In this document: one piece after another, positions 20,584 through 32,897 of the stretch
Layout: each line of letters starts with the position of its first letter
Numbering within the stretch: position 1 is the first letter of the stretch
The notes under the pieces: generated by a model
What the model saw: the letters and a program-made list of their open reading frames with translations, nothing else
The model's database searches: none
What the model was told of the DNA's origin: nothing
Made by a program: the position numbers and the translations under genes
Assembly: GCA_003602595.1 (NCBI GenBank)
Contig: QQRX01000012.1
Coordinates: 750 to 43,389 of the forward strand
Length of the DNA stretch: 42,640 bases
From: Candidatus Poseidoniales archaeon
Lineage (GTDB): Archaea > Thermoplasmatota > Poseidoniia > Poseidoniales > Thalassarchaeaceae
Direction: 5' to 3'

Positions 20584-22536
20584 TTGTCAAGGGTGAAAGT
20601 AGAATTTGAAGATAATCAATTTCGTGAATATGAGGCTGGAATTACAGCTGGTGATGTGGTTAGAGATATTCATGGCCGTAAATCTGGCTTTGTAGCAGTA
20701 TTTATTGATGGAATAGAAAAGGATATGTCAACAATTTTGGAATCAGATTGTAAAATTGACCCCATAGATGGCGAGTCAGATGCTGGACTATTTATCCTTA
20801 GGCATTCATGTGCTCATCTTCTAGCTCAAGCGGTCACACAATTGTATCCTGATGCAAAACCAACAATAGGGCCTCCAATAGAACATGGTTTTTATTATGA
20901 CTTCTTTATGCAACCTGTCGGAGATGAAGAATTAAAAAAAATAGAAAATAAAATGAAAGAAATAATGAAAGAAAATTTACCCATAATACGCGAAGAACAT
21001 TCCAATATTTCATTAAGAAAGATGTTTGGTGAAAATAAATTTAAGATTGAAATAATGGATGATAAAATAGGTCAGGAAGTTGGTTCAACGGCTTACAGAC
21101 AAGGAGAATTTGTAGATTTATGTATAGGTCCGCATGTAGAATTTACCTCTCAACTAAGATGGTTTAAGTTAACAAGTTCTAGTCAGGCATATTGGAGAGC
21201 AGACTCAAAACGAGAATCATTGACTAGAATTTATGGCATGTGTTATGCAACAAAAGAAGGATTAAGAAATAGAGAGAAACAAATACAAGAAGCGGCAAAA
21301 CGGGATCATAAAAAAATAGGTAGAGAAATGGAACTCTATATGATTGATGAAATGATAGGTAAAGGCCTACCTGTTTGGCTTCCCAATGGCGAAATTTTAA
21401 AATCATCTATTGAAGAATTTGCCTTAAAAACTGAAGAAGAATATGGTTATCAGAGAGTAACTACACCTGTTCTAGGTAAAAAACAGCTTTTTGAGGCGAG
21501 TGGTCACCTTCCTCATTATGCTGAAGGGATGTATCCTCCAATGGAAATGGATGATGGGACTTATTACCTTAAGGCGATGAATTGTCCAATGCATCATCTT
21601 GTCTACAGAAATAAAAAACGCTCATATAGAGATTTGCCTCTAAGGATTGCTGAATATGGTACTGTTTATCGTAATGAAATGTCAGGTACACTTGCAGGAT
21701 TATTAAGAGTGAGGATGTTATCAATGAATGATGCTCATATTTATTGTACTTTAGACCAAGTTGCTCAAGAGTTTGAAAGTAATATAAAAATGGTACAAGA
21801 TTATTATGCTGCGTTTGGATTTGAAAACTATTATTTCAGACTTTCACTATGGGATCCAGAAAATACCGAGAAATATATAGATCAGCCTGAGAATTGGGAA
21901 AAAACACAAAATCATCTCAGAAAAATACTGGATAGTTTAGAAGTACCATACATCGAAAGCATAGGAGAAGCCGCATTCTATGGTCCAAAAGTCGATATTC
22001 AATTTACTACTGCGATAGGTAGAGAAGAGTCAATGTCTACAATACAACTTGATTTTGCCGCTAAAGAAAGATTTGGTTTGACTTATACTGATGAAACTGG
22101 ATCAGATAACGGAGAAGTATTTGTCATACACCGTGCACCTCTATCGACACATGAAAGATTTGTTGCCTTTCTAACTGAACATTGGTCGGGTAATTTTCCC
22201 ACTTGGTTATCTCCAATCCAAGTACAAATAATTACTATTTCTGAGAAACATAAAGAGTATGGAAAAATAGTTTCTGAAGAGTTACAAAAATCAGGAATAA
22301 GAGTTAAAATTGATGATTCGGATAATACAATTGGTAAAAAAATTAGGATACACAGGAAAATGCGTCCTGCTTACATGGCAATTATCGGAGATGATGAGGT
22401 TAAAAATAACACAATTTCAATAAGAACGAGAAAGGGGGCACAAAAAAATGACATTCCACTTGATGAATTTATCCAAGCGATAGGGAGAGAAATAAGTAAT
22501 CGTGATACTATCTTGGGAATAGTTCCGGTAGAATAA
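20584..22536 (+). CDS. thrS: Threonyl-tRNA synthetase, bacterial-type architecture
   Basis: Charges tRNA-Thr. Domain order is TGS (residues 1-60), then the N2 editing domain with HSCAHLLAQAV (H-x3-H) and the later DLCIGPHV. The class II catalytic core has motif 2 YRNEMSGTLAGLLRVRMLS and motif 3 VIHRAPLSTHERFVAFL, and the C-terminal anticodon-binding domain starts near FPTWLSPIQV. This is the bacterial/eukaryotic layout. Canonical archaeal ThrRS instead carries a D-aminoacyl-deacylase-like editing domain, so horizontal origin is likely. The start is taken as TTG 20584 (650 residues). trhO follows after 4 nt. Confidence 0.95.
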   Translation: MSRVKVEFEDNQFREYEAGITAGDVVRDIHGRKSGFVAVFIDGIEKDMSTILESDCKIDPIDGESDAGLFILRHSCAHLLAQAVTQLYPDAKPTIGPPIEHGFYYDFFMQPVGDEELKKIENKMKEIMKENLPIIREEHSNISLRKMFGENKFKIEIMDDKIGQEVGSTAYRQGEFVDLCIGPHVEFTSQLRWFKLTSSSQAYWRADSKRESLTRIYGMCYATKEGLRNREKQIQEAAKRDHKKIGREMELYMIDEMIGKGLPVWLPNGEILKSSIEEFALKTEEEYGYQRVTTPVLGKKQLFEASGHLPHYAEGMYPPMEMDDGTYYLKAMNCPMHHLVYRNKKRSYRDLPLRIAEYGTVYRNEMSGTLAGLLRVRMLSMNDAHIYCTLDQVAQEFESNIKMVQDYYAAFGFENYYFRLSLWDPENTEKYIDQPENWEKTQNHLRKILDSLEVPYIESIGEAAFYGPKVDIQFTTAIGREESMSTIQLDFAAKERFGLTYTDETGSDNGEVFVIHRAPLSTHERFVAFLTEHWSGNFPTWLSPIQVQIITISEKHKEYGKIVSEELQKSGIRVKIDDSDNTIGKKIRIHRKMRPAYMAIIGDDEVKNNTISIRTRKGAQKNDIPLDEFIQAIGREISNRDTILGIVPVE

Positions 22537-22540
22537 TGGT

Positions 22541-23365
22541 GTGAAAATGATTGTTAATATTGCTGGATATAAATTCATAAATATTAATAATACTGAGGAA
22601 ATGAAAGACAAATTTTTAGAAAAATGTTTGGATCTAGGATTAAAAGGGACTATTTATTTTAGTAATAATGGAATTAATTTCTTCGTGGCAGGAACCCAAG
22701 AAATGATAGATAAATACATTCATTTTATGGAGCTTGATGAACGATTAGTAGGGATTTCTCTGAAAATAAGTTACACTGAATACCAACCATTTCGAAGGAT
22801 GATAGTAAAGAAAAAGAAAGAAATTATTGCATTAGGATTGGATGAAGTCAGGCCAGCAGAATATACAAGTCCGTCAATTAATCCGAAAGAATTGAAAAAA
22901 TGGTTAGATGAGGAAAGAGACATACTATTACTAGATACAAGAAATGATTATGAATTAAGAATTGGTACATTTGAAAAGGCAATAGACTTGGATATTAAAA
23001 CCTTCAGAGAGTTTCCATTCGCTGTAGAAAAACTAGATGTGGATAAAAATAAAACGGTAGTGATGTTTTGTACCGGAGGGATACGTTGTGAAAAGGCATC
23101 AGTTGTTATGGAAAATCAAGGTTGGAATAATGTTTTTCAATTAGAAGGAGGTATACTGAATTATTTTGAAGAAGTCGGAGGAGAACATTGGAATGGGGAT
23201 TGTTTTGTTTTCGATCAAAGGGTTGCATTAAATTCTGAACTCTTGGAAACTGAGATAGAAATGTGTTTTATTTGTAGAGAGCCTTTATCTAAAGAAGAAC
23301 AAAAATCTGAGTACTATAAAATTATGGAATATTGTCCATATTGTATAAATAAAAATAAGAAATGA
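22541..23365 (+). CDS. trhO: tRNA uridine-34 hydroxylase TrhO (YceA-type rhodanese protein)
   Basis: The N-terminal ~95 residues match the TrhO-specific domain (GTIYFSNNGINFFVAG, then KISYTEYQPFRRM). A rhodanese domain follows with LLLDTRNDYELRIGTF and the active loop FCTGGIRCEKAS (Cys177). The tail has two paired-cysteine motifs, CFICREPL and CPYC, typical of the family. In bacteria TrhO performs the oxygen-dependent hydroxylation of U34 to ho5U in tRNAs for several four-codon boxes, including Thr. Start is GTG 22541 (or ATG 22547), only 4 nt after the thrS stop, so the two are very likely cotranscribed. An archaeal TrhO is unusual and consistent with transfer into an aerobic lineage. Confidence 0.9.
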   Translation: MKMIVNIAGYKFININNTEEMKDKFLEKCLDLGLKGTIYFSNNGINFFVAGTQEMIDKYIHFMELDERLVGISLKISYTEYQPFRRMIVKKKKEIIALGLDEVRPAEYTSPSINPKELKKWLDEERDILLLDTRNDYELRIGTFEKAIDLDIKTFREFPFAVEKLDVDKNKTVVMFCTGGIRCEKASVVMENQGWNNVFQLEGGILNYFEEVGGEHWNGDCFVFDQRVALNSELLETEIEMCFICREPLSKEEQKSEYYKIMEYCPYCINKNKK

Positions 23366-23408
23366 TTGAGAGTATTTATTTGGATTGATTATTTGGAAAA
23401 TACAAGAC

Positions 23409-24443
23409 ATGGCAGATGAAGCAGTTTTTGAGAATTATTCTCAAGCAGAGATTATCGAATCTATGCTTGTTTCGGCACGTTCGATAATTAGAACTTGTAT
23501 GGAAATCAGAAATCATGAAGATGTAGTTATTATTACTGATACACACACATCTGAGATAGGTAGAGCGTTATATGAAGCAGCAGCTGAAGTAACTGATAGA
23601 GTACTCTTGATGATGATTCCTCCCGCTTTCAAGTCTGGAAATGAGCCCCCAAGTCCAGTAGGAGATTTGATGAGAAAGTCTAGAGTTGTCCTAATAGCAA
23701 CAAAAGAGTCATTAACGCATACAAAAGCAAGAATTAATGCTTCCAAGGCTGGAGTCAGAATAGCATCTATGCCAGGAATAAGTAAAGAGACCTTCATTCT
23801 TGGAGGAATGACTGCGGACTATAATGCCCTTCAATTAGAGATATCAGGAATGAATAATGTTTTACGAAGAAGGAGAGAAGTACATGTCACATCTCCTTCA
23901 GGAACTGATGTAACTTTTACTACTGGATCTAGGTGGATTCTAGAAGATAATGGAATTTGTAACAGGCCTGGACAAGTAACAAACCTACCCGCTGGAAGGA
24001 TATTTACTATGCCAAAAGAGGGTTCGACTAATGGGAAAATAGTATTTGATGGATCATGGGAAGGAAAATTACTACCAAAAAAGGTTGAAATGAAAATAGT
24101 AAATGGAAGGGTTACAGAAATATCAGGATATGAGGGCGTTGAGGAAATAATTGAAAGTTTTAATATCCCTCCTCATAGTAAAAGAGTCTTGGATTTACAA
24201 TTGAATAAGACCGTAGCAGAATTTGGATTTGGAATGAATTCTAGAGCCAAAGTTATTGGAAACGTATTAGAAGATCAGGTAGTTAGAGGAAATTCATATT
24301 TTAGTTTTGGAGACAATACAGCATTAGGTGGAAATTCAAATACAGGCATACAGAAGAGAGGAGTGATGAATAAAACAAGCGTTACTTTAGAAGATGTTGA
24401 TTTAGTCTTAGAGGGAAAAATTGTTGCACGTAAAAGGAAATAA
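23409..24443 (+). CDS. M29/NicX-like protein lacking most metal ligands
   Basis: The C-terminal half aligns by eye with the COG2309 family (aminopeptidase T, M29, and the dioxygenase NicX): NLPAGRIFTMPKEGS, KIVFDGSWEGKLL, AEFGFGMNSRAK and GNVLEDQVVRGNSYFSFGDN. Compared with the family pattern as I remember it, the glutamate near NLPxxE is Arg/Gly, the histidine in GTxHxAFG is Tyr (GNSYFSFG), and the HxD pair is replaced (GIQKRG). The glutamate in AEFGFG remains. It is probably not a standard metallopeptidase. ATG 23409 (344 residues) is preferred to an upstream TTG at 23385. Its TAA overlaps the next ATG by one base, so translation is coupled to the TPK-like gene. Confidence 0.78.
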   Translation: MADEAVFENYSQAEIIESMLVSARSIIRTCMEIRNHEDVVIITDTHTSEIGRALYEAAAEVTDRVLLMMIPPAFKSGNEPPSPVGDLMRKSRVVLIATKESLTHTKARINASKAGVRIASMPGISKETFILGGMTADYNALQLEISGMNNVLRRRREVHVTSPSGTDVTFTTGSRWILEDNGICNRPGQVTNLPAGRIFTMPKEGSTNGKIVFDGSWEGKLLPKKVEMKIVNGRVTEISGYEGVEEIIESFNIPPHSKRVLDLQLNKTVAEFGFGMNSRAKVIGNVLEDQVVRGNSYFSFGDNTALGGNSNTGIQKRGVMNKTSVTLEDVDLVLEGKIVARKRK

Positions 24444-25054
24444 TGAGAAACATGATTGCTATATTGTGGTGTAATGGTAAAACTCCTTCGAATGATTTGA
24501 TAAAAAGAGTCTTGACGAAAGGCAAAAAAATTTTTGGAGTAGATGGAGGGGCTGAAATAGCATTGTCCTTAGGAAAAAAAGTTCAAAAAGTATTAGGAGA
24601 TTTTGATTCTATAAATATTGATGAATGGAAAGGTGAGAGTGAGTATTTACCAGATCAGGATATGAGTGATTTTGGTAAATCCATAAAATACCTTGTAGAA
24701 AAGGGATACACACAAATAGAGGTTATAGGAATCGATGGAGGAAGTCCGGAACATTTTCTCGGTGTATGGGCAGTATTAGCGGAAATTGAGGATAATGTGA
24801 AAATAATACTTTATCATGAAGAGAGGATTACTTATAGAATTCATCCTGATTATGATGATACTCAAATATATATTGAAAATGGAAAGGAGTTTTCTATTTT
24901 CGCCCTCACTCATTGTAATGACATAACACTCACTGGAGCAAAATGGAATATGAAGAATGAAAAACTCTCATTATCGAGCAGGGGTTTGCATAATCAAGGA
25001 ACTGGGAAAAATATCTCAATAAAGGCTGATGGGATAGTGGTTTTAATAATTTAA
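24443..25054 (+). CDS. Thiamine-pyrophosphokinase-like protein (degenerate)
   Basis: A 203-residue protein with the layout of thiamine pyrophosphokinase: FGVDGGAEIALSLG (31-44), LGDFDSI (51-57), then DQDMSDFGKSI (71-81) where the enzyme has DQxxTDLxKA, and GIDGGSPEHFLG (96-107) where it has GGRxDH. A C-terminal beta domain ends SSRGLHNQGTG, comparable to the thiamine-binding SxGxSN segment. Loss of the RxDH residues means thiamine may not be the substrate. A related pyrophosphokinase role (for example on a pterin or nucleoside) or a non-catalytic role is possible. ATG 24443 sits on the stop of the M29-like gene (TAATG). Its stop lies 2 nt from that of the convergent AI-2E family gene. Confidence 0.72.
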   Translation: MRNMIAILWCNGKTPSNDLIKRVLTKGKKIFGVDGGAEIALSLGKKVQKVLGDFDSINIDEWKGESEYLPDQDMSDFGKSIKYLVEKGYTQIEVIGIDGGSPEHFLGVWAVLAEIEDNVKIILYHEERITYRIHPDYDDTQIYIENGKEFSIFALTHCNDITLTGAKWNMKNEKLSLSSRGLHNQGTGKNISIKADGIVVLII

Positions 25055-25056
25055 TG

Positions 25057-26109
25057 TTAATCACTTTTAGGATTCATAGAAAGCATCATTGCAATTGGTT
25101 TTGTACGAGGGTCGCTTTCCAAAGCTCGCTTCATTATTACAGCTAGAGGGACGCCTAATATCATTCCCATAACCCCCCAAGCCCAACCCCAGAAGGCTAC
25201 CAAAAGAAGTAATACTATTGGAGAAATATCCAAACGTTTTCCTGCTATTTGAGGTTCAATAACTCCTCCCCATAATTGTTGATTTGCTATTAATAGTATA
25301 ATCAAGAACACTGCAGAAGAAGGTGAAAGTATAATCAGACCCAGAACAATTGGGAATAAAAGTGATATTAATGCACCTACATATGGTATAAAATCCATCA
25401 TGAAGGTGATACAAGCCCACAAAAACCAGCCTGGGATACCGAAAAAATACAAAATTATAGCGGCTAAGACTGCTTGCCCAAATGCTACTGAAGCCCTGGT
25501 AACAACATAGACATTGATTCCCTTCGAGGAAGATGATGCTAATGCGATGATTCTATCTACATCATCTGGATAAGCTGCTTTGATACGCTTAGGGAGTGTT
25601 TCTGCTTCTAATATGATAAAAAGTAAAAATATCAATACAGTAACCATGCCTGCTGTGAAACTTGCTAAAGATCCAACAAGTCCTGTAGCGAATGATTCAA
25701 TTTTCTCAACGGTAATCAGGCCAGTAACTTCGGAAGTATCAAATGAGAAGCCCAAAATTGTTGCATTATCTTCAAACCAGAGAAGTTTATTTTGTAGTTT
25801 CTCCGAAAGTGTAGGGACTTCTTCTGTAAAAGATTGTAAATTTGAAAAAAGGATATTTGAGGCTACGAATAAGAAAGCCATTACGATTCCAACTAGTGCC
25901 CCGTAGGCTAAAAAGGGGTGTCTACCTATCTTTTTCTCTAGCCATTCAGCAGGAGGACGGATTAGGAAGAACAGTAATATAGCGACTACCAATGGTTGTA
26001 ATATAGATTTTAAATGTACAATTGCCAGTACTGCAATCAAAAGTAATATTGCTATATTAGAAGCCGTATTAAATTTTAGTTTACGCAATTTCACTTCTTC
26101 TCCCATCAT
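25057..26109 (-). CDS. AI-2E family (PerM/TqsA-like) membrane protein
   Basis: A 350-residue integral membrane protein with the hallmark layout. Two helices near the N-terminus (about 18-48) are followed by FLIRPPAEWLEKKIGR and a third helix. A soluble helical segment of about 70 residues comes next, then a block of four to five helices. The motifs PYVGALISLLFPI and GGVIEPQIAGKRLDISPIVLLLLVAFW (20-residue core around VIEPQIAGKRLDISP) are diagnostic. Family members export varied substrates: autoinducer-2 in one case, sodium-proton exchange in others. The substrate here is unknown. It may be in one unit with the upstream glycosyltransferase (gap 53 nt, same strand). Start ATG 26109. Confidence 0.92.
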   Translation of the reverse strand: MMGEEVKLRKLKFNTASNIAILLLIAVLAIVHLKSILQPLVVAILLFFLIRPPAEWLEKKIGRHPFLAYGALVGIVMAFLFVASNILFSNLQSFTEEVPTLSEKLQNKLLWFEDNATILGFSFDTSEVTGLITVEKIESFATGLVGSLASFTAGMVTVLIFLLFIILEAETLPKRIKAAYPDDVDRIIALASSSSKGINVYVVTRASVAFGQAVLAAIILYFFGIPGWFLWACITFMMDFIPYVGALISLLFPIVLGLIILSPSSAVFLIILLIANQQLWGGVIEPQIAGKRLDISPIVLLLLVAFWGWAWGVMGMILGVPLAVIMKRALESDPRTKPIAMMLSMNPKSD

Positions 26110-26162
26110 ATTCTCAAGTTGGGGAGAATGGTTTCACCATCAAGTTTTTCGCCTGCACACTT

Positions 26163-27395
26163 CTAAATAATAATACTTTGATACAAATTCAAAAAATCAA
26201 TTGCATTTTGTTTGAAAGTGAATTTTTCAGACACTAAATTACGTCCTGCTCTACCTTTTTCTAATAATTTGGATTTATCATTCAATTCAGATAAAATTAT
26301 TTCTGACATTGAATTAATATCTCCCATAGTAAATAATGCTCCAACAGAATTGTCAACCATTTCAGGCAATGGTCCATGGTTGACAGTAATAACGGGAGTT
26401 CCAGAGGCCATTGCTTCCAGTGGAATAAGCCCCTGTCCCTCATAATAAGAGGGATAAACAACAATATCGGAAACACGATACAATAATGCTAATTCATCAA
26501 ATTTCATACTCGATTCAATAAATACAGATCCTTCTAGTCCTAATTTCTTTGCTTGTTTTAATAATCTAGATCGGAGTTGACCTCTCCCAACTATGACTAA
26601 AAACGAATTAGGAGATTCTTTCTTAACCTTTACAAACGACTGAAGTAACATACCAAAACCCTTTCTTGCTGCTAAACGGCCAACTGCAAGTAACAGATAC
26701 GAATCTTCTTTGACATTAAATCTGGAACGGACTTCTGAATAAATGGTAAAATCATCTTCATCATCCCGCCTTAATGGAAGAAACATGTCAGTATCTACTC
26801 CCCAATGAATTACTTTACAATTCCAGTCATTTGGAGTGGAATATCGATTTAGGAAATCTTCCCTGGTGGCATTTGAGTTAGCAACACATATATTCGAATG
26901 ATTAATTGCAAAATTTTCAAATTTAGCATATCTTTTTGCCGTAAATCTCATAATGAGATCATTTGGGTTTGCCCATACTGCAGATTCTTTATATTTTGAT
27001 GCAATAAAAAGACCATCTCGCTCTCCAAGCCAAGAGCCATGGAGAGAAGAAATAACGGGGGCTATTTCTTTCTTACATTTTTCAAATTGTTTTTCATCCC
27101 ACGAAATCATAGGACAGTGTAAATGGACAACGTCTACTGGATTAATTTCATTAATTTTTTTTAGTTTTCTTAGAGCATATTTCCCATAGGAACGTGTGAA
27201 TTCCATTGGTATTTTTTTCCAAGAAACTGTAAATACTTGTACTCCATTTATTTCAGGCGGTTTATCCATCCCTTTACGTGTAATTATAGATATTTTATGG
27301 CCCATTTCGGCTAGAGCAGCGGATAAATGAAAGACTGTGGAACCCATTCCTCCCCATCTAGGAGGGTATTCAGCAGATAACATTGCGATATGCAT
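26163..27395 (-). CDS. Glycosyltransferase family 4 (GT-B fold)
   Basis: N-terminal acceptor domain begins MHIAMLSAEYPPRWGGMG, with HLHCPM and SSLHGSW. The C-terminal nucleotide-sugar domain has LLAVGRLAARKGFGMLL and the EGQGLIPLEAMASGTPVI motif, whose glutamates bind the donor. At 410 residues from ATG 27395 it is typical. An upstream in-frame ATG at 27464 would add 23 unrelated residues; a ribosome site GGAG 8 nt before ATG 27395 decides for the shorter form. No signal or membrane helix, so it acts in the cytosol. Likely adds a hexose to a lipid or surface glycan; donor and acceptor cannot be read. It is divergent from a GT2 gene. Confidence 0.9.
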   Translation of the reverse strand: MHIAMLSAEYPPRWGGMGSTVFHLSAALAEMGHKISIITRKGMDKPPEINGVQVFTVSWKKIPMEFTRSYGKYALRKLKKINEINPVDVVHLHCPMISWDEKQFEKCKKEIAPVISSLHGSWLGERDGLFIASKYKESAVWANPNDLIMRFTAKRYAKFENFAINHSNICVANSNATREDFLNRYSTPNDWNCKVIHWGVDTDMFLPLRRDDEDDFTIYSEVRSRFNVKEDSYLLLAVGRLAARKGFGMLLQSFVKVKKESPNSFLVIVGRGQLRSRLLKQAKKLGLEGSVFIESSMKFDELALLYRVSDIVVYPSYYEGQGLIPLEAMASGTPVITVNHGPLPEMVDNSVGALFTMGDINSMSEIILSELNDKSKLLEKGRAGRNLVSEKFTFKQNAIDFLNLYQSIII

Positions 27396-27498: not shown

Positions 27499-28236
27499 AT
27501 GTCAGATACGTTGCCCGCTCACGTCACTGTAGTTATTCCTACACGAAATGAAGAAGCCGCAATTGTAGATACGATAAGGTCTGTTCCAAATGATGGATGG
27601 TGCGATAAACTAGATTTCTTAATTATAGATGGAAATTCTACTGATGCAACTAGAGAATTGGCCGAAAAAGAAGGTGCTACAGTCTATTTAGAAAAAAGGA
27701 AAGGTTACGGTCGTGCTTATAAAACTGGTTTTTCAATAGCACCTGGAGAAATCATAGTTACAATGGATGCTGATTGCACATACCCCGGAGAAGAAGTTCC
27801 GGAGTTGGTAGGTAGATTACTAAATGAAAATTTGGACTGGATTACCTGTGATCGTCTAACAAAGGCTGAAGAAGGAGCGATGTCAGGAATGCATGGATTT
27901 GGAAATTGGACTTTGTCGACAATCGCTAGGATGCTATTTTGGTATGGAATAAAAGACTCACAAAGTGGCATGTGGGTATTTAGAAAATCAATTTTCGATA
28001 ATGAGAAAGTTAGGCCTATGCATGATGGTATGCCTTTATCTCAAGAATTTAAAATAAGAGCGAGGAGATATCTTCCTTCCAACAAAACTACCGAAATTAG
28101 TGTCCCTTACAGAGTTAGAGTTGGAGATGCTGAGATTAATACATGGGGCGATGGATTACTAAACTTACGAAGATTATTCTGGTTAAGATTTGGATTATTC
28201 AGTAAAAGTACGCCTTGGGGAGTAGAAGAAGATTAG
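27499..28236 (+). CDS. Glycosyltransferase family 2 (polyprenyl-phosphate sugar transferase-like)
   Basis: GT-A fold enzyme of 245 residues: TVVIPTRNEEAAI (10-22), LDFLIIDGNSTDAT (38-51), GYGRAYKTGF and the metal-binding DAD (90-92) in VTMDADCTYPGEE. This arrangement resembles dolichyl-phosphate mannose/glucose synthases, which load a sugar on a polyprenyl carrier for surface glycosylation. There is no C-terminal membrane domain. A conserved acceptor-side segment follows (DSQSGMWVFRKS, then LSQEFKIRARR). Start ATG 27499. Its TAG overlaps the TAA of the giant beta-helix gene in the tetranucleotide TTAG (28233-28236), hinting at a shared surface theme but not at cotranscription. Confidence 0.9.
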   Translation: MSDTLPAHVTVVIPTRNEEAAIVDTIRSVPNDGWCDKLDFLIIDGNSTDATRELAEKEGATVYLEKRKGYGRAYKTGFSIAPGEIIVTMDADCTYPGEEVPELVGRLLNENLDWITCDRLTKAEEGAMSGMHGFGNWTLSTIARMLFWYGIKDSQSGMWVFRKSIFDNEKVRPMHDGMPLSQEFKIRARRYLPSNKTTEISVPYRVRVGDAEINTWGDGLLNLRRLFWLRFGLFSKSTPWGVEED

Positions 28237-31200
28237 TTTTCTTTATTATCAAATTCTTCGTCCAATTCTCTTGGAACAAATGCTGACCAAGACTCAATTA
28301 ATTCAATATCTTTAGCGATTTGAATACGCCTTTTATTAGCATAGGCTACTCCTAATAAAGAAAATATTATTATTAAAATTATTAAAAGTGGAAAACCAGC
28401 GCTAAATAGCCAATCCAATGTATTTTCATTACTTTGTTTCACCACAGGAATGGATTCTATTTGTGATTGACTAACAAGTTCTCCATCAACAGCCCATATC
28501 TCGACTTTGACCCAATTCCCTTCGGTAATATCCCAATTAGACCTATATGTCCAAACATTATCATCGGCTACTTGGTCACTACCTTTTCCGTCATCTCTGA
28601 AAATCATCACTTCAGATACACCTCCGCTAAGCATTTCTCCATTGACTTGAGTTGTCGTTCTATCTGGATCGTCAAGGTTTACATAAATATAAACCTCGGT
28701 AGGTACATTAATTTCAATTGAATCGATTGAAATGACTAAATTATCTAATTTTGGATAGCTCGAACCTATTGTTAGATTAATAGAATTAAAATCTTGTGCA
28801 CCTCTAGAATCTTGAACAAGTAAATTAATCTGAACAGAACCTGGATTAAAATAAACTAAATCTTGTTTTTTATCACTAATTATTGTTCCATCATTTAATG
28901 ACCATTGATACAAAATAATATCATCATCATAGTCAAATGAAGAAGAGGCATCTAGATTTACTGGCTCACCAGGAGAGATATACTGACCATTTTCTAAATT
29001 ATTAATATTAGCAATTGGTGCAGATTCAAGAATAGAAATTTTTTGGGTATACTTTCTCTCCATTTTATCAGAATCGACTAATGTTATGGTCAAATTATGT
29101 TCACCTGCTGGAAGATATTCATTATACGAAATATCTGTTGTTTTATTTTCTAAAATAGTACCCATTAAGTCTGATTCAATACTTACAGTAAAAAAATCAC
29201 CATCTGGGTCAAAAGAATTTTGGAAATCAAATAAAACTGCAGAATTGGAATTTACTTTTGTATTAGGCATTGGAGAATTTAAAATCATTATTGGGGCAGA
29301 TTCGGTTATTATGATATTAATTGGTGGACTAATTACTTTTTGATTTCCGTCGTCCAAAGATAGAGTGATGTTATGATTTCCAGAAGGAAGACGGGATTGG
29401 AAAAACCAATCAGTTCCAATTGGCTCAGATAATTTATCACTAATCCATAAAATACTCACTAAGTCATTATTTCCTTCCAAATATGGATTGCAAAGTAAAT
29501 TACTTCCATTATCGACTAAATCTGAACATGCTAAATCCCAATCCCCCGATCCAGTAGATTGGAAGTCCAATATATCACCTGATTCGGCCATGATGCCATT
29601 AATTGGTTGTGAAATTAATGCCGCAGGAGGAGCATTCAATACCTCAACTTCAAATGAATAATACGTCCAAAGTCCTGCATGACTTGGTAGATTATCGGTG
29701 GCCTTCATTGTAATGTTATGAATTCCTTTTGAAAGATATCCCATCCACTCAATTGTATTTGTCGATTCTAGGCCTGAAAACAAGAGGCCATCGATACTAC
29801 TAATAAATTCAAATTTTACAATATCGCCTTCTGGATCAATGGTATCAGTTCCATCAAGCCTGACTAAGCTAGATGAAATATTATCAACTCTTGAAATTTC
29901 CATTATTGCAGAAGGCAATTCGTTTACTAATACCACATTGAATGACCAACTTCGACTAGGATTTATTCCGTCTGAAGCAAATACTGTGACATTAAATTGC
30001 CCAGGAGCACCGATAAATGATCTAGAAATTTCGTTAGGACAATTAGGATCTCCATCAGTTACAGGTGTTGGGTCTTCATATGAAGTTTCTAACCAGCACC
30101 AAAGATCACCATTCTCTGGATCATAAGTACCATCTAATATTATACTGACATTTGCTGTTTCACCAAGATATAGAATCCCTCTTGAGTTAATTTTTGGGAC
30201 AGAACCAACAGAAAGGATTGGAGGAAGATTGATTAATTCAATTCTCCTTGTTTCATTGACGCATTGATTTTCAATATCGCACACTTCTAAAGTTATTTGA
30301 TGAACTCCATCGGACAAACATTGAGATTCATTATTTGCAATTATATGAGAATAATTCGCTGTATTTTCTTCCTGGACACAAGAATATGTAAAATCTCCAT
30401 CCAAATTACTTGTCCATGTAAAAGTAATTTCATCTAAATCTAGATCCCAAGAATTAGAAGCATCAAAGACGACTACGCTAGCACTAGAATATTGAGAATC
30501 ATCTTCAGGAAGTTGCCAAATAATAAATGGCGCTTGATTTGAAATATCTAGTCTACAGATAACTACTGTATCGGAACTTAAAACGAAGGAGTCTGTATTA
30601 TTGTAAATTCCATCATAATTACAACTAGAATTTACTATGTTCTCTGATGACCATCCTTCTTGCGGAAGCCATCTTTTACCAATGAATGGGCCATATAGAT
30701 AATCACCAGAATAAGGTTGAGTAGCGGTTATATTATCTTCATAAATATCAAAATAAATATTCACCTCAGCATACGGGATATTCATGAAATATTGATTTAC
30801 GGTATGTATTTCCAAATTCCACATTATATCAAATATATTATTTTCAAAAGAAGAAATAGGAGTAAGAATATCTTGAGATGAAATCCACTTAATATGATTA
30901 TTATCTCCTAAAATAAAGGAGTTTTGCATTGATGAATTTTGCATTAGGAAAGTATCTGTAAAGTTTAGAATACTATTTTCGGAGGTTGGATTATTTGAGT
31001 AACAATTAATATTAGTATTGGCAATTATTAGTTCTGCATGATCTGATAAATCAAAGCAGGCATTATTTCTACCATAAATGATACTATTTTCAATTGATGA
31101 ACTGGTTATCCCCTTGCCGCTCCAATATAATCCATCATTGGAATCCATGATTTGTAGATTATTTATTTTGGCATCAACCTCAACCATCTTTAAGGCATAA

Positions 31201-32897
31201 TCTGAAGAATTAGAAAATATTGTAATATTATCAAGTATAATATTTCCAAAATAAGTTATTTCTGAGTTATCAATATTCAATGGTATTGGAGAAATGGTAT
31301 CTTTAATTAATACTGATTTCAATTGTAAATCGATACTATTTTTTATGAAAATACCATATTGATCATTCGTAGAAGAACATGAATTGCAACTAACATTTTT
31401 ACCACCACTCATCACCGTATTAGATTCATGGAAAAATATTCCAGAACCATCTTCGGGATTATTTTGTCCTATACCATTTTGAGATGTTACCACATTGGAT
31501 AATTCAACATTACTAGAGTCAAAAACATACAATCCATTTAATGAATTATTGGTACTTATAATTGTGTCAACTCTAGGGTGGAATTCTCGAAAATCTACGC
31601 CATTACCTCCGTTTTCTGATGTAAACCAATTACTACCTATTACTCCTCCTTTCATCATTAATACTCCTGGGCCTATTGAATTATTTACAATTAGATTGTT
31701 GACTATTGCCGGACCTTTGGAACTCCAACTTGCACTTCTGAAAAATAAGCCTGCGCGGTCATTTATTGGTACAGAAGATGATGTTTGACCATTTCCAATG
31801 AAAGTAGCATTCTCTATTTTAGTAGAGGAGTCTATCATATATGCCCTTAAACCTACGGCAATATTATCTTCAATTAATGCCCCCTCTATGTGGACACCAC
31901 TTGTATTGATATCAAATGCCGCATATCCTAAACCAGAAGTTTTTGCATCTGGCCCTCCTGTCCCTCTGAGTTGTAAATCTTCAAAAACAGCATTGGTTAG
32001 GAGGTTTGAATATTGACTATGATTATACCTTTCAACCATTATTCCTCTGTATTGACTATTTTCAATTACTATATCTGAGAAAGTAGGTCTAGTAGTCCAT
32101 CCTTCTGTTTGATGACGAACAAAAACGCCATTATCACAACGATTTATTTTAATATCTGTCAGTAAAGGAATTGAGTCTTCTACCCATATTCCTGCAGAAA
32201 CTGAAAGAGTTGCGCCAGAAATATTTGAAATATTGATATTAGTAAATAAACCCCCTGCTTTCCCCCAAAAATTTAATCCACGAGTTATCAAACCATCTAT
32301 ATTAACTCCATCGACAATTGGCGCTGATTCAAATCCAATAGAAAGTCCTATTCCATACCTCCATGATGAAGAAAAACCATGAACGTCTTGCCCTCCTCCA
32401 TCAATAGTGAGGTTCTTTATCGTTGGCGAGGCCCCATCGAATAAATCAACAGCTACACTATCGGCATTAACTACAAGTAAATTGGAAATAATAGGATCAC
32501 TATCATAGATTGTAATGCCATACTTTGCATCATTAATAGTCAAGTTATCAATTGCAGAATTATGGCCATTACTAGTTGCATTAAATACGATGCCATGATG
32601 ATTACCAGAACTAGCATCCAATATGACGGGAGAAGATATTGTACCTTGTATATTTATTCTGCCATCAACTATTATTCTTTCTTCATCTCCTAATACAATA
32701 TTTGTACCTGGCTGCACGATAAGTATTTGACCAACTTCAACATTAAAACCATCTTCAAGAAAAACAGAATCAGACCATATTATCGTAGTCTTACCAGTTT
32801 GTGAAGCATTAGATGCAATAGTTCCAAAGGTGGAGCTAATTATTAGAAATACCAGAAAAATGGCACGCTTCTGAAAATGGGATAGCGGTGCGGCCAT
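28233..32897 (-). CDS. Giant exported parallel beta-helix / PKD-repeat surface protein
   Basis: 1,554 residues. A signal peptide (about 10-30, AIFLVFLIISSTFGTIA) precedes LIVQPGTNIVL, a typical entry to right-handed beta-helix proteins. Residues ~50-720 repeat short N/I/G/S-rich coils such as NLTINDAKYGITIYDSDP, as in NosD/pectate-lyase-like folds. Roughly six PKD/Ig-like units follow (about 780-1420), seen as repeated phrases like FDASNSWDLDLDEITFTW, LDGTDTIDPEGD and LDASSSFDYDDD. A final module with DDGKGSDQVADDNVWT precedes one membrane helix (about 1495-1518) and a ~35-residue cytoplasmic tail. Beta-helices often bind or cleave polysaccharide; no catalytic residues could be assigned. Likely adhesion or glycan handling at the cell surface. 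ATG 32897. Confidence 0.85.
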   Translation of the reverse strand: MAAPLSHFQKRAIFLVFLIISSTFGTIASNASQTGKTTIIWSDSVFLEDGFNVEVGQILIVQPGTNIVLGDEERIIVDGRINIQGTISSPVILDASSGNHHGIVFNATSNGHNSAIDNLTINDAKYGITIYDSDPIISNLLVVNADSVAVDLFDGASPTIKNLTIDGGGQDVHGFSSSWRYGIGLSIGFESAPIVDGVNIDGLITRGLNFWGKAGGLFTNINISNISGATLSVSAGIWVEDSIPLLTDIKINRCDNGVFVRHQTEGWTTRPTFSDIVIENSQYRGIMVERYNHSQYSNLLTNAVFEDLQLRGTGGPDAKTSGLGYAAFDINTSGVHIEGALIEDNIAVGLRAYMIDSSTKIENATFIGNGQTSSSVPINDRAGLFFRSASWSSKGPAIVNNLIVNNSIGPGVLMMKGGVIGSNWFTSENGGNGVDFREFHPRVDTIISTNNSLNGLYVFDSSNVELSNVVTSQNGIGQNNPEDGSGIFFHESNTVMSGGKNVSCNSCSSTNDQYGIFIKNSIDLQLKSVLIKDTISPIPLNIDNSEITYFGNIILDNITIFSNSSDYALKMVEVDAKINNLQIMDSNDGLYWSGKGITSSSIENSIIYGRNNACFDLSDHAELIIANTNINCYSNNPTSENSILNFTDTFLMQNSSMQNSFILGDNNHIKWISSQDILTPISSFENNIFDIMWNLEIHTVNQYFMNIPYAEVNIYFDIYEDNITATQPYSGDYLYGPFIGKRWLPQEGWSSENIVNSSCNYDGIYNNTDSFVLSSDTVVICRLDISNQAPFIIWQLPEDDSQYSSASVVVFDASNSWDLDLDEITFTWTSNLDGDFTYSCVQEENTANYSHIIANNESQCLSDGVHQITLEVCDIENQCVNETRRIELINLPPILSVGSVPKINSRGILYLGETANVSIILDGTYDPENGDLWCWLETSYEDPTPVTDGDPNCPNEISRSFIGAPGQFNVTVFASDGINPSRSWSFNVVLVNELPSAIMEISRVDNISSSLVRLDGTDTIDPEGDIVKFEFISSIDGLLFSGLESTNTIEWMGYLSKGIHNITMKATDNLPSHAGLWTYYSFEVEVLNAPPAALISQPINGIMAESGDILDFQSTGSGDWDLACSDLVDNGSNLLCNPYLEGNNDLVSILWISDKLSEPIGTDWFFQSRLPSGNHNITLSLDDGNQKVISPPINIIITESAPIMILNSPMPNTKVNSNSAVLFDFQNSFDPDGDFFTVSIESDLMGTILENKTTDISYNEYLPAGEHNLTITLVDSDKMERKYTQKISILESAPIANINNLENGQYISPGEPVNLDASSSFDYDDDIILYQWSLNDGTIISDKKQDLVYFNPGSVQINLLVQDSRGAQDFNSINLTIGSSYPKLDNLVISIDSIEINVPTEVYIYVNLDDPDRTTTQVNGEMLSGGVSEVMIFRDDGKGSDQVADDNVWTYRSNWDITEGNWVKVEIWAVDGELVSQSQIESIPVVKQSNENTLDWLFSAGFPLLIILIIIFSLLGVAYANKRRIQIAKDIELIESWSAFVPRELDEEFDNKEN

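Follow-up and report, generated by a model that had tools for sequence, protein, structure and literature searches.

Two overlapping genes of a marine archaeon, a member of the Poseidoniales, probably encode a working thiamin pyrophosphokinase (TPK) and a metal-free protein of the M29/NicX fold, and their adjacency more likely stems from shortening of the genome than from an old partnership. Positions given here are those of the window, the whole stretch of 42,640 nucleotides that was analysed, which comes from a genome that is 80.61% complete and whose nearest relatives carry the labels Candidatus Thalassarchaeaceae, Poseidoniales or marine group II. The features on which the analysis is based are the following:

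23409..24443, plus strand: M29/NicX-fold protein without a complete metal site (M29-like), 344 aa, intact ORF
24443..25054, plus strand: probable thiamin pyrophosphokinase, 203 aa, intact ORF
24441..24445, plus strand: TAATG overlap of the M29-like stop and the TPK start, from the sequence
23997..23999, plus strand: codon of Arg197 (M29-like), replacing a metal Glu (LPAGE), in the column of a Glu of AmpS
24219..24221, plus strand: codon of Glu271 (M29-like), the sole retained metal-site residue, in 132/132 rows
24276..24278, plus strand: codon of Gln290 (M29-like), Glu in non-adjacent relatives, from row counts
24297..24299, plus strand: codon of Tyr297 (M29-like), replacing a metal His, in the column of a His of AmpS
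24351..24359, plus strand: codons of Gln315-Lys316-Arg317 (M29-like), replacing HxD, from row counts
24743..24754, plus strand: SPEH of the TPK-like protein, replacing RxDH, from sequence and row counts

The M29-like stop codon TAA (24441-24443) and the TPK start codon ATG (24443-24445) have one base in common, the A of TAATG, so the one-nucleotide overlap of two intact frames given in the preliminary description of this DNA is correct. The two genes are probably read as one transcript that yields two unlike proteins. Among 59 relatives the TPK is found in 55 and the M29-like protein in 56, with a single match per genome. Comparison of closely related genomes in 11 pairs gives a low dN/dS for both genes (M29-like gene 0.047-0.126, TPK gene 0.050-0.205), so neither gene seems to be decaying. 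Pseudogene decay of the pair is ruled out by the intact frames together with these ratios, as the preliminary description had argued from the frames. Directly upstream of the M29-like gene, at 22541-23365, lies a gene for a TrhO-like tRNA uridine hydroxylase (rhodanese). A 1554-codon ORF on the minus strand (28236-32897) is kept downstream of the pair in most loci of the clade in which the two genes are adjacent.

Profile search and structure prediction, both proposed earlier as checks, place each protein with the profiles and folds of its family. The TPK-like protein passes the cut-off of TIGR01378, the NCBIfam thiamine diphosphokinase equivalog (103.1 bits against 76.4), and is above the gathering threshold for both Pfam TPK domains, PF04263 and PF04265; many TPKs of the adjacent clade fall slightly under the TIGR01378 cut-off. 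In a fold search with the predicted model (pLDDT 93.3), solved TPKs are at the top with Z from 20.5 to 16.8 (14 TPK entries among the matches listed), followed by SteA and an archaeal HPPK (Z 10.0-10.9). With the solved TPKs (3lm8, 2f17, 2g9z) the protein shares the common fold, both domains, the four Mg-binding Asp, the Lys, the Asn and the aromatic position that stacks on thiamin, whereas it has SPEH in place of RxDH and its identity to them is low (24% to 3lm8). SteA has a TPK-like fold in a non-thiamin role; its fold match to the window TPK is partial (Z 10.9 over 117 residues), and against the SteA family the protein scores far below the cut-off (11.5 bits against 150).

The replacement in the RxDH motif has to be weighed against the residues that TPKs strictly conserve. 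The part of PMC2515308 on the Candida TPK structure names four Asp, a Lys and an Asn as strictly conserved, with one position always aromatic; neither the Arg nor the Asp of RxDH is in that list. The equivalents in the window TPK, matched to the Candida enzyme by order, spacing and motif, are D34, D53, D55, D76, K79, N184 and W168. In our TPK alignment (127 rows, 100 from loci with adjacent and 27 with separated genes, three short TPKs of named loci being omitted), D34, D53, D55, D76, N184 and His104 are present in 127/127 rows and K79 in 126/127, the remaining row having an unread residue (X). At position 168 every one of the 100 adjacent rows has Trp, and 25 of the 27 separated ones have Trp, Tyr or Phe. 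The window protein reads GGSPEH where many TPKs have GGRxDH, so that the Arg and Asp are missing while the His is invariant. Arg at position 101 occurs in 15/27 separated rows (it is absent from 12/27) and in 0/100 adjacent rows; Asp at position 103 occurs in 17/27 and 22/100, respectively. The change from RxDH to SPEH claimed in the preliminary description is thus real, but the conclusion that it altered the catalytic residues does not hold, since the strictly conserved TPK residues are all there.

Gene content points in the same direction. The TPP-enzyme domain PF02775 was found in 57/59 genomes, and ThiL over its curated cut-off in none of the 59. A weak ThiL match is present in 52/59 genomes, and the one example examined is PurM. 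In the control set of 14 known genomes ThiL gave a match in all 14, yet above the cut-off in just 9; an atypical, lower-scoring ThiL in the relatives is therefore conceivable. ThiE was found in 0/40 relatives and ThiC in 1/40 (G001). This sole ThiC, at G001:C1:17118-18467, is in a genome with a contamination of 6 and possibly on a foreign contig. A search of positions 22300-26300 around the pair for a TPP riboswitch gave no such element, and three sub-threshold matches to other families. As judged from gene content and sequence, with searches covering ThiL, ThiE and ThiC, the TPK is probably the only TPP source of the archaeon; a cell that depends on TPP and makes it through this TPK alone would need the enzyme to work. 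Most likely, then, the TPK-like protein is a working TPK, which the catalytic residues, the equivalog cut-off, the fold match and the presence of TPP enzymes without ThiL over the cut-off all support. Weighing against it are the many adjacent-clade TPKs with scores slightly under the TIGR01378 cut-off and the loss of the RxDH Arg in all 100 adjacent rows. It would move diphosphate from ATP-Mg to salvaged thiamin, and thiamin salvage via TPK is the probable TPP route in Poseidoniales archaea.

The M29-like protein differs from metal-bearing relatives in residues of the metal site. It scores 40.9 bits against Pfam PF02073 (gathering 27) over a central stretch, and the top fold match of its predicted model (pLDDT 83.0) is NicX, at Z 33.8 across 315 residues; PepS, AmpS and AmpT come next (Z 19.9-23.9), with CgnE (Z 13.3) and CgnB (Z 12.4) lower. 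Column matches to AmpS, PepS and NicX are taken from alignments; AmpT numbers serve as labels, and the columns of CgnB were matched by order, spacing and motif. The M29 aminopeptidases AmpS, AmpT and PepS have the same fold and belong to PF02073, but their dinuclear metal ligands are gone here: in the columns that hold Glu, Glu, His, His and Asp in metal-bearing relatives, it has Arg197, Gln290, Tyr297, Gln315 and Arg317, respectively. This agrees with the preliminary description, which had noted that the H and HxD ligands and one E are lacking. The fold and the Pfam score are thus those of the M29 family, whereas one of six ligand positions is retained, and because the dinuclear ligands are not kept we do not file the protein as an M29 peptidase. 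NicX, a 2,5-dihydroxypyridine dioxygenase (7cn3), is the closest solved fold. Its iron site (His265, Ser302, His318, Asp320) is not retained, since Glu271, Gln315 and Arg317 take the places of the Fe ligands His265, His318 and Asp320. Its substrate-side His is retained: His104 of the M29-like protein is at or near the position of NicX His105, which part of the NicX literature describes as substrate-guiding. Both this match and that of Glu271 to NicX His265 were made via the homologue L216.

The alignment of M29-like proteins has 132 Poseidoniales rows, 103 from adjacent and 29 from separated loci, some genomes being counted twice where named loci overlap the other set. Position 197 is Lys or Arg in all 132 rows. 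Position 271 is Glu in 132/132 and is the only fixed one of the six metal-site positions. Position 297 is His in 11/132 rows and position 315 in 67/132, while position 317 is Asp in none and, in the adjacent clade, Arg in 98 and Lys in 2 of the 103 rows. Position 290 is Glu in 29/29 separated rows and in 0/103 adjacent rows; the adjacent clade has therefore gone one step further in ligand loss. The replacement residues, whose conservation the preliminary description had proposed to check, differ in constancy, the basic residue at M29-like position 197 being fixed and TPK positions 101 and 103 varying among separated relatives. That the ligands are merely displaced, which the preliminary description had considered, was not borne out: when a fixed His, Asp or Glu was sought at the old positions across the 132 rows, Glu271 was the only one. 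In one set all 52 Poseidoniales rows show the ligand loss, 29 of them from loci with separated genes. Among homologues from other families of the Thermoplasmatota, the His and HxD are intact in 13/20 and at least one of these three residues is changed in 7/20, which argues that erosion of the ligands happened repeatedly; one homologue (L219) has Lys at the position of residue 197 and retains the His and HxD. Degeneration is stronger in three Poseidoniales proteins (L062 12027-13085, L063 11859-13007 and L116 1830-3032), from which the GDN...GG loop is also partly or wholly missing.

The M29-like protein has thus lost its metal ligands across the whole order under strong purifying selection, as read from the aligned sequences, and it is apparently metal-free. 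Weak or single-metal binding is possible, since position 315 is His in 67/132 rows. The basic residue at 197 and the Tyr and Arg at 297 and 317 stand where acidic and His ligands once held the metal. It is conceivable, though unlikely, that the protein is still an enzyme, with a rearranged or single-metal site or with a metal-independent reaction via His104, Glu271, Asp289 and the basic residue 197. Conservation is very strong, with His104 present in 132/132 rows and many further residues invariant, and speaks for an enzyme. Against it, there is no conserved set of His, Asp or Glu replacements at the old positions, where Glu271 alone of the six remains.

A parallel for the fate of the metal site is found in crocagin biosynthesis, in which, according to parts of PMC10070186, CgnB and CgnE are both peptide-binding proteins. 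In CgnB, two zinc ions are bound at a dinuclear site (Glu161, Glu252, Glu274, His280, His291, Asp293), whereas in CgnE no metal was found and the site carries Glu274Lys and His280Tyr; the same parts of that paper describe recurrent loss of the metal site following independent duplications. CgnE (6zsu) and the Poseidoniales proteins both show a change from Glu to a basic residue (Lys in CgnE, Lys or Arg here) and from His to Tyr, although the Glu-to-Lys change of CgnE, judged by order and spacing, probably affects a different ligand. The profile search from the M29-like protein did not reach CgnB or CgnE, the fold match to CgnE is just Z 13.3, and no RiPP context was seen here. The resemblance concerns the fate of the metal site and is not proof of peptide binding. 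By analogy to CgnE, the old pocket of the M29-like protein probably serves to bind a small ligand or a peptide that is neither hydrolysed nor oxidised. Poseidoniales would be a further lineage, beside the crocagin case, with metal-free M29-fold proteins. The analysis also drew on PMC7910607, PMC12236431 and PMC12977500.

The preliminary description had read the pair as two degenerate enzymes that lost catalysis in parallel within an old, conserved partnership, a reading that we consider very improbable. The loss of the M29 ligands and the SPEH motif are both real. However, the catalytic residues of the TPK are invariant, searches for ThiL, ThiE and ThiC revealed no other TPP route, and the M29 loss is order-wide and does not track adjacency; as the TPK is not shown to be degenerate and adjacency is a feature of one clade, parallel loss in a coupled pair is not supported. 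Because the loss is order-wide and adjacency is confined to one clade, the two are not linked in time.

Within that clade the arrangement is tight. In all 80 named loci the next ORF after the M29-like one, on its strand, is that of the TPK, and in 76/80 a start codon falls in the range from 4 nt upstream to 10 nt downstream of the M29 stop, so the arrangement is not due to chance. Of the four exceptions, L191 and L202 have no start and L156 and L196 have only more distant upstream starts. In the phylum-wide sample, with 117 listed members of the order that have both genes, adjacency occurs in 43/43 genomes of seven genera of family f1 (g1, g4, g6, g8, g9, g10, g11), and in the tree all adjacent rows group together as a single clade (SH-aLRT 100). 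In the other f1 genera (g2, g3, g5, g7), five pairs are about 7.7-8.2 kb apart, the strands differing in one of them, and in four the genes fall on different contigs. In family f2 the distance is 7.7-8.9 kb for 40 same-strand pairs, about 1.4 kb for two pairs and 16 kb for one pair whose genes are on opposite strands; in 22 more, the genes fall on different contigs. Outside the adjacent genera, 44 same-strand pairs in total are 7.7-8.9 kb apart. Relatives without adjacency, which the preliminary description had named as evidence against its reading, are thus found in part of the order: none of the pairs in g2, g3, g5 and g7 of f1, or in the whole of f2, is adjacent.

The gap in the separated lineages holds two genes, c12 (about 500 codons, with weak EF-hand matches) and c3 (about 2,100 codons, with FG-GAP repeats); as a rule both are encoded on the opposite strand. 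A match to c12 is present in 33/34 genomes outside the adjacent clade and in 1/25 inside it, this last being marginal and on another contig. In the two 1.4 kb cases (genus g20, L241 and L242) c12 is present and c3 is missing, an intermediate state. In another locus, L243 (G223), the M29-like and TPK genes are spaced more widely and point in opposite directions. The simplest reading is that the block was lost in the adjacent clade: the M29-like and TPK genes would at first have been near neighbours on one strand with the two opposite-strand genes (about 2,100 and 500 codons) between them, and loss of this block in one Thalassarchaeaceae clade would have left the tightly spaced pair. Insertion of the block elsewhere is less likely but conceivable, as the tree does not fix the root within Poseidoniales. 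The genes probably became neighbours through loss of intervening genes, and a jointly decayed enzyme team is therefore unlikely. An old partnership, as claimed at first, is not needed to explain adjacency in one clade that also lacks the intervening two-gene block.

It is less likely that a partnership arose in the adjacent clade itself, with the M29-like protein recruited after adjacency as a subunit, chaperone or regulator of the TPK or as a binder of a thiamin compound. Same-strand succession in 80/80 named loci and 43/43 genomes would fit such a partnership, and a joint functional change would fit the loss of M29 Glu290, the mostly basic residue at 317 and the lack of TPK Arg101 in the same clade; the SteA-SteB operon, in the part of the literature on it that describes a TPK-fold protein working in a complex, is a precedent. 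Against it, the genes are apart in the rest of the order, TPK Arg101 is also missing from 12/27 non-adjacent rows, and all the changes are on a single branch and count as one observation. Outside the order the genes part company, which makes an obligate pair unlikely: family f3 of the same class has the TPK in 5/7 and the M29-like protein in 0/7 genomes, many genomes of other Thermoplasmatota families have an M29-like homologue and no listed TPK, and a TPK is absent from the 20 outgroup M29-like loci (3.8-15 kb long). Identified neighbours of the outgroup homologues include PurM, PdxS and UMP kinase, with no thiamin gene among them. A more specific version, in which the metal-free protein of the Thalassarchaeaceae clade is a dedicated TPK partner whose Arg/Lys197 and Arg317 bind the TPP diphosphate or hold the TPK, is rather doubtful; if true, a dead peptidase fold would serve vitamin B1 salvage. 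A link of the M29-like protein to the TPK acquired in the coupled clade is possible, at low confidence.

These marine archaea have an order-wide, strongly conserved protein with a metallopeptidase fold and no complete metal site, which Pfam-based annotation would label a metalloprotease. Among open-licence PMC papers we found none on the M29-like/TPK pair or on metal-less M29 proteins in Poseidoniales; the text of PMC6461757 gave no match to the terms sought, and the single aminopeptidase passage seen in PMC9723583 concerns peptidase transcription.

The AIRS-family gene upstream of the M29-like homologue in L217 and L218, a candidate ThiL that would have tied the M29 family to thiamin elsewhere, proved to be PurM. 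In two other Thermoplasmatota families, f20 and f13, PurM is the immediate upstream neighbour of the M29-like homologue (L217 2088-3104, L218 7205-8230, L225 5158-6189), the L225 gene being assigned by its 62% identity to PurM.
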